Shown one piece after another: positions 22,415 through 60,714 of a stretch of DNA of 64,000 nucleotides. A program made the position numbers and the translations under genes. The notes beneath the pieces were generated by a model that had not been told where the DNA came from, ran no database searches, and saw only the letters and a list, made by a program, of their open reading frames with translations. The stretch covers positions 1-64,000 of the forward strand of contig CAMART010000007.1 of the NCBI GenBank assembly GCA_945860705.1. Direction: 5' to 3'. The DNA comes from Chitinophaga pinensis (GTDB lineage Bacteria; Bacteroidota; Bacteroidia; Chitinophagales; CAMDFR01). The number at the start of each line of letters is the position of its first letter. The stretch's first letter is position 1.

Positions 22415-22664
22415 AATTTGCAATTAAATTTATTTCATTACTTATGTATATAATTTTATATTATTCAAATGAAATATTTAATTTAAATTTATAAATGTAC
22501 TTTATATATATGTTTTTAAAGTATCAAAATTGATAGATAAATTTAACAATATATTTAATTCTATAATATACATAGGTGTAGATAGGATTCACCTCTTATA
22601 AAATAGAGTAAAGACTCCGTCGAAACAATAGTAATCACATAGGATTTACAGGCAGAACAAATGA

Positions 22665-22811
22665 TTAGGAATTTTTTATCATGAAGATTTTTTGTTAAAG
22701 TCTGATGCTTTAAAAATAGAGAAAGAAATAAAATCATGGAAATCAAGAAGAAGGATAGAAGCATTACTACTACAAAAAATGGAAAATGGTTCGGAGCATC
22801 CCGACTCATAA
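22665..22811 (+). pseudogene. remnant of a GIY-YIG-type endonuclease gene
   Basis: The frame after a stop at 22662 reads IFYHEDFLLKSDALKIEKEI, then KSWKSRRRIEALLLQK, and ends NGSEHPDS before a stop. This is the C-terminal helix region of small GIY-YIG nucleases (UvrC N-domain family), which in Bacteroidota often end in GSEHPD followed by tRNA-like sequence. The N-terminal GIY-YIG half is not recoverable; the sequence before it has several stops. It is a dead copy. Apart from this remnant, its tRNA-like tail, a terminator and a promoter box, the gap 22415-23029 shows nothing I can name. Confidence 0.6.
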
Positions 22812-22862
22812 GTCGGGAGTGGTCATAGGTTCTCACACCAAGGCGTGACTATAACTCCCACT
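22788..22862 (+). other. tRNA-3'-like remnant interrupted by a palindrome
   Basis: After the nuclease remnant comes GGTTCGGAGCAT, then CCCGACTCATAAGTCGGG (7-bp stem, 4-nt loop, like an anticodon arm containing CAT), then GGTCATAGGTTC and finally CTATAACTCCCACTA. Together these look like the D-arm end, anticodon arm, T-arm and acceptor end of a tRNA. The T-loop is split by the 16-nt palindrome at 22833-22848, and no 5' half is present, so it cannot be a working tRNA. Confidence 0.5.
22833..22848. repeat. 16-nt palindromic repeat, copy 1
   Basis: TCACACCAAGGCGTGA, an imperfect palindrome (one mismatch in the 7-bp arms) with loop AA. It sits between GGTTC and CTAT, where the T-loop of the tRNA-like remnant should be. 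Related copies are at 42214 and 60601. Confidence 0.7.
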
Positions 22863-22870
22863 ACAAATAA

Positions 22871-22898
22871 AGGGTTTCAGCAATGAAGCCCTTTTTTT
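22871..22898 (+). terminator. Rho-independent terminator after the tRNA-like remnant
   Basis: AGGGTTTC pairs with GAAGCCCT (one G-T pair) over a 6-nt loop, followed by a run of T. It probably once ended the tRNA transcript and survives with the remnant. Confidence 0.75.
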
Positions 22899-22969
22899 AT
22901 TTAATATCATAAGAATATAGATTTAAATTTATTTAAACTAGATTAATTTTATTGTTATTTATCAAATAT

Positions 22970-42213: not shown

Positions 42214-42229
42214 TCACGCCAAGGCGTGA
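42214..42229. repeat. 16-nt palindromic repeat, copy 2 (perfect)
   Basis: TCACGCCAAGGCGTGA: perfect 7-bp arms around AA. It lies directly after the AT-rich tandem array, 6 nt from the end of the downstream gene at 42235. It has no tRNA-like flanks, unlike the other two copies. Confidence 0.75.
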
Positions 42230-60551: not shown

Positions 60552-60587
60552 TACAAATATTTTTCATATATTTGCAGAAGAAATAAA

Positions 60588-60626
60588 GTTTCTGTAGCTC
60601 TCGCGCCAAGGCGTGAGGATAGAGCA
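60588..60626 (+). other. partial copy of the tRNA-Arg 5' half, interrupted by a palindrome
   Basis: GTTTCTGTAGCTC and GGATAGAGCA are identical to the first 13 nt and the D-arm end of the tRNA-Arg gene that starts 49 nt later. In the real tRNA these blocks are joined by AATT (the D-loop); here they are separated by the 16-nt palindrome 60601-60616. The copy ends before the anticodon. Confidence 0.75.
60601..60616. repeat. 16-nt palindromic repeat, copy 3
   Basis: TCGCGCCAAGGCGTGA, one mismatch in the 7-bp arms relative to the perfect copy at 42214. It occupies the D-loop position of the partial tRNA-Arg copy. Confidence 0.7.
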
Positions 60627-60636
60627 GATAAAAAAT

Positions 60637-60710
60637 GTTTCTGTAGCTCAATTGGATAGAGCATCTGACTACGGATCAGAAGGTTTGGGGTTCGAATCCC
60701 TACAGGAACG
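60637..60710 (+). tRNA. tRNA-Arg (anticodon ACG)
   Basis: The cloverleaf fits throughout: acceptor GTTTCTG/CAGGAAC (one G-T pair), D-stem GCTC/GAGC, anticodon stem TCTGA/TCAGA with loop CTACGGA (anticodon ACG at 60671-60673), variable AGGTT, T-stem TGGGG/CCCTA with loop TTCGAAT, and discriminator G. CCA is not encoded. The ACG anticodon would be read as ICG after deamination and decode CGU/CGC/CGA. Confidence 0.97.
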
Positions 60711-60714
60711 CACT

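Follow-up and report, generated by a model that had tools for sequence, protein, structure and literature searches.

Why should a tRNA gene be preceded by a fragment of itself in which the D-loop has been exchanged for a palindrome, and are tRNA loops what such a palindrome seeks out? The question is raised by the 64,000-nt stretch of the Chitinophaga pinensis genome (G000) that was analysed, hereafter the window. Nucleotides 1-26 of tRNA-Arg(ACG), comprising the 5′ strand of the acceptor stem and the D-arm, are present twice in it, the spare copy lying directly upstream of the intact gene (Table 1). The sole difference between the two is that the D-loop bases AATT are replaced in the spare copy by a 16-nt palindrome, which as RNA would form an 8-bp stem with one G-U pair; the 49-nt stretch of duplicate and linker has a folding z-score of -3.7. 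This arrangement had been given in a preliminary description of the DNA, and it was found to be correct to the base. A match to TAnnTTTG, the consensus of the Bacteroidota promoter element, lies just upstream, and motifs of this type also precede most tRNAs of the genome. Because of this position, the half copy is probably part of the transcribed 5′ leader of the tRNA, if the motif is used.

Table 1. Features of the window that bear on the palindrome and its tRNA-derived surroundings.
Feature	Position	Strand	Basis or remark
TAnnTTTG promoter element match of the tRNA-Arg(ACG) unit, TATATTTG	60567..60574	+	Sequence; consensus of Bacteroidota
Copy of tRNA-Arg(ACG) nt 1-13, GTTTCTGTAGCTC	60588..60600	+	Identical to 60637-60649
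16-nt palindrome replacing D-loop AATT, TCGCGCCAAGGCGTGA	60601..60616	+	One mismatch to family consensus TCACGCCNNGGCGTGA
Copy of D-arm 3′ part up to tRNA nt 26, GGATAGAGCA	60617..60626	+	Sequence
A-rich linker, gataaaaaat	60627..60636	+	Final bases agree with those of the congener's tRNA leader
Intact tRNA-Arg(ACG) gene	60637..60711	+	ARAGORN; Rfam RF00005, 66.1 bits
Partial duplicate of tRNA-Val 3′ part (GGTCATAGGTTC...CTATAACTCCCA) and downstream terminator	22819..22900	+	94% identity over 52 nt after the palindrome
Family member replacing T-loop GAATC in the tRNA-Val 3′ piece, TCACACCAAGGCGTGA	22833..22848	+	Sequence comparison
Family member, TCACGCCAAGGCGTGA	42214..42229	+	CAA...CAA flanks; lies in an AT-rich tract about 5 bp beyond where the next gene (- strand) ends

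The palindrome belongs to a family with the consensus TCACGCC-NN-GGCGTGA, whose copies are dispersed across the 2.94-Mb genome. With three mismatches allowed, 3 copies were found in the window against 0.00 expected by chance, and a genome-wide search gave 69 matches compared with 0 for a reversed control pattern. The search of the genome and its relatives that had been proposed at the outset collected 35 copies in G000 and 24 in a congener, G002, each with at most two stem mismatches. When one mismatch was allowed, 26 and 22 copies were found in these two carriers; two other congeners (G001 and G003) were without a copy, and counts in 56 further genomes of the order were 0-2. Most of the loci collected belong to one of the carriers alone. 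The family is thus a dispersed repeat that turns over between species and has lineage-specific copies. The earlier idea of a small mobile palindrome agrees with this dispersal; mobility itself is deduced from the turnover and from the empty ACG locus of the congeners, and no mobilising enzyme was identified. As to the surroundings, many copies (L093, L102, L104, L019 and others) sit in AT-rich tracts with a period of about 7 bp, built of AATTAAG in G002 and of AATTCAA/TTGAATT in G000. One locus on contig C34 of G000 (L066) holds three family members in tandem over about 240 bp, which alternate with GTCATTCCGAGG-type repeats.

A second tRNA gene of G000, tRNA-Arg(TCT) at C19:19167, shows the same half-copy arrangement with AGCT replaced by the palindrome, and this arrangement is also found in G002. 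A misassembly, which had been named as a possible cause, is argued against by this recurrence of a D-loop case at a different tRNA-Arg, both within G000 and in a congener that was assembled independently. In G001, G002 and G003, the locus of tRNA-Arg(ACG), syntenic in G002, contains neither duplicate nor palindrome, so the ACG arrangement probably arose in the C. pinensis lineage. The TCT arrangement is common to G000 and G002 and missing in G001 and G003; by parsimony, the TCT event would be the older one and the ACG event specific to G000, with loss, including in G002, as an alternative cause of the absences in principle. Apart from the tRNA loci, no strictly matched pair of occupied and empty sites was found, and in the intergene corresponding to position 42214 the tract is missing in G001 and G003.

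Such half copies could also have arisen by a tandem duplication followed by a local template switch (quasipalindrome mutation) at the D-arm, independently of all other copies. A duplicate that ends at nt 26 fits that origin, which is nevertheless very improbable, as the insert matches the genome-wide family in place of being derived locally, and would have had to arise in two tRNA-Arg genes and in a tRNA-Val piece. In that tRNA-Val piece, the third case, it is the T-loop that is replaced. The stretch before it (22561-22820) has no long + strand ORF listed, and resembles the terminal part of a gene for a GIY-YIG-type endonuclease that is followed by a tRNA-like tail. Matches to the D-loop form in a wider search were limited to three in GC-rich genomes, a count that leaves out a contig matching that of the congener; no tRNA was present in the fetched stretches and they were taken as chance. 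The AATT-flanked form was absent from the viral contigs searched, and a viral source was rejected.

Copies within tRNA-like fragments amount to 3 of 35 in G000 and 1 of 24 in G002, and the suggestion that tRNA loops are the target therefore did not hold. The precision of the exchange did, and it extends beyond tRNAs. Besides two D-loops and one T-loop, the palindrome takes the place of a loop hexamer in two unrelated REP-like families, both of which have palindrome-free copies in the same genomes: plain GAAATGCTG-AGGTAG-GAAGCATC compared with GAAATGCTG-palindrome-GAAGCATC in the first, and plain GGTTGGTGTTG-TATTTT-TCACCAAC compared with TTG-palindrome-TCACC in the second. It is also found at the tip of an imperfect inverted repeat of about 110 nt (GCACAGGA...TCCTGTGC; L011, G000:C12:14910), for which an assignment as tmRNA was unsupported by ARAGORN and Rfam. 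In a genome from another family of the order (G053), some copies of a REP with the outer stem ATTGCTTC...TCGCAATGAC contain the family palindrome in the loop. REPs with that outer stem have inner hairpins in which a near-constant A-rich loop of 7 nt (mostly AGAAAAA) closes a 6-bp stem that varies in sequence and is complementary throughout (for example C17:23129-23165, C82:6420-6456 and C170:9375-9411); a plain-loop REP in inverted orientation often lies at a distance of 40-170 bp and forms a pair with them.

Across the 59 sites, the best perfect flanking stem had a mean length of 4.14 bp, compared with 3.38 bp for swapped flanks and 4.10 bp for the highest of 2000 swaps; the copies within AT-rich tracts, which form the majority, have a short outer stem of about 4 bp, which makes an apex position weak there. 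The palindrome marks hairpin loops in general and not tRNA loops specifically. We believe, with a probability of about one half, that a small hairpin repeat, dispersed in the genome, has the palindrome as its conserved tip, is REP-like in size and placement and GC-cluster-like in anatomy, occupies the loops of pre-existing hairpins and was captured at the loops of extruded DNA hairpins.

Direct repeats of 3 nt lie flush with the palindrome at 29 of 59 copies, against 4.2 expected from swapped flanks (maximum 12; P < 0.0005), and the excess is still significant within each genome and after orientation was normalised. The check for target-site duplications that had been called for thus gave flanking triplets at about half of the family but not at the tRNA copies, which have lost loop bases instead. 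The main triplet is TTG in G000 and AAG in G002. Since it differs by species, the triplets might belong to the element itself, the alternative being target duplications within species-specific repeat tracts.

Selection, rather than spread, could also place one sequence at many sites. The palindrome would then be an RNA or DNA motif, such as a protein-binding site or a 3′-end element (a stabiliser, a pause or a translation brake, as with stop-proximal REPs), and the copy in the tRNA leader would regulate tRNA-Arg processing. Consistent with this, 19 of 52 copies lie no more than 17 nt beyond a stop codon (8.7 expected), and none of the copies, most of which are intergenic, was called within a gene. 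The excess after stop codons, together with the scarcity of copies between divergent genes (4 of 52), also counts for the hairpin-repeat reading above. One intergenic place has the palindrome in both species (L032/L101), with TTG...TTG flanks in one and AAG...AAG in the other. The TCT half copy is identical at 39 of 40 bases between G000 and the divergent G002; because it differs at this single position while the flanks do not align, constraint is suggested, and the copy may be functional. Alternatively, its tRNA-derived part might have been maintained by gene conversion, with the neighbouring tRNA as donor. An RNA switch, in which the half copy pairs with the 3′ end of the tRNA and refolds the precursor, was predicted in G000 (P 0.96 and 0.89) but lost in G002 (P 0.0), and was rejected. 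We regard a selected motif as somewhat unlikely, given also that G001 and G003 do without the palindrome, that the majority of loci are not common to both carriers, and that one sequence in the loops of unrelated hairpins is left unexplained.

Known repeats of similar size are the REPs (PU, BIMEs), hairpins of 20-40 bp between genes, often just after stops, in which a given outer stem can bear different loops (PMC3733652, PMC12306157); in REP superfamilies, one of the ends has GTAG or CGTC as an unpaired tag (PMC3733652). The palindrome might be a REP that owes its spread to a RAYT, a REP-associated transposase of the Y1 (HUH) type. As short, imperfect, multicopy and extragenic palindromes, the copies resemble REPs in size, in intergenic and stop-proximal placement and in loop variation, and their outer and inner stems recall the anatomy of E. 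coli REPs. RAYT-like proteins are encoded in both carriers, and in G002 a RAYT-like gene (C152, L149; L110:793) is preceded by a family copy at a distance of about 115 bp, whereas its other flank has different hairpins (GTTGGCGCAAGCGTG...). Among the Y1 transposase genes inspected whose flanks were resolved, this was the only one with a family copy nearby, and several are flanked by other hairpins. Y1_Tnp matches also occur in the palindrome-free G001 and G003. Most copies have neither GTAG nor CGTC beside them, the flanking triplets being mostly TTG, AAG, TAG and ACG; GTAG precedes the palindrome solely in the tRNA-Arg(ACG) half copy, and there it belongs to the tRNA-derived sequence. A RAYT origin thus seems quite unlikely to us. 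A separate REP family of G000 is represented on contig C14 (L156), where a RAYT-like gene lies between TCGATGCGTG...CACGCATCGA hairpins.

Palindromic elements of Rickettsia and Wolbachia are inserted in pre-existing genes or RNA genes; they share this habit with the present family but are of greater length and situated in coding genes, whereas no copy was called in a gene here. REPs differ from it as well, since a single inner hairpin is found here on outer stems of several unrelated kinds, tRNA arms among them, and no dedicated RAYT was found among the Y1 genes inspected. Because the REP tag is absent, we file the family as a variant that works like REPs or GC clusters and not as a member. 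The GC clusters of yeast mitochondria, together with the double-hairpin elements of Allomyces, are short palindromes, rich in GC although the genome around them is AT-rich, with direct repeats of 2-3 nt and rapid turnover (PMC4478555). The present family is alike in all these respects, the short repeats being lacking at the tRNA sites, and has sites that are empty in close relatives (the ACG locus in three congeners and the 42214 tract in two). It differs in being on a bacterial chromosome, in being shorter (16 nt), and in replacing the loops of known hairpins. IS1397 and other REP-targeting insertion sequences also use hairpin repeats as insertion targets (PMC1525189); here, in contrast, the element is 16 nt long and gene-less, also hits tRNA arms, and replaces loop bases rather than only duplicating them.

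Under capture at extruded hairpins, the reading we prefer, nt 1-26 of tRNA-Arg(ACG) would have been tandemly duplicated into the gene's own leader, the intact gene being retained, and the D-loop of the spare copy then swapped for the palindrome. A hairpin extruded on single-stranded DNA may be opened at its loop, by being nicked or recognised, and a short hairpin captured there at the cost of 4-6 loop bases or with duplication of 3. Candidate activities are a single-strand-DNA transposase, or cleavage of hairpin loops followed by repair. Structure at the DNA level would be the target, and for this reason tRNA arms, REPs and inverted repeats would have a common tip. Copies after stop codons or in a tRNA leader may persist because an RNA hairpin is tolerated or useful there. 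A bolder form, which we consider unlikely, is that of a gene-less mobile mini-hairpin with a structural target: a dedicated activity that recognises hairpins, of a kind not yet described in bacteria, would put it in place of the loop wherever a hairpin is extruded, be it a tRNA D- or T-arm, a REP or an inverted repeat.

One tip common to unrelated hairpins is unusual among bacterial palindromic repeats, the spread of which in bacterial genomes is still poorly understood. Insertions that can be read against known hairpins, such as tRNA arms and plain-loop REPs, reveal the loss and gain at each junction, and such readable junctions make hairpin-loop capture directly testable.
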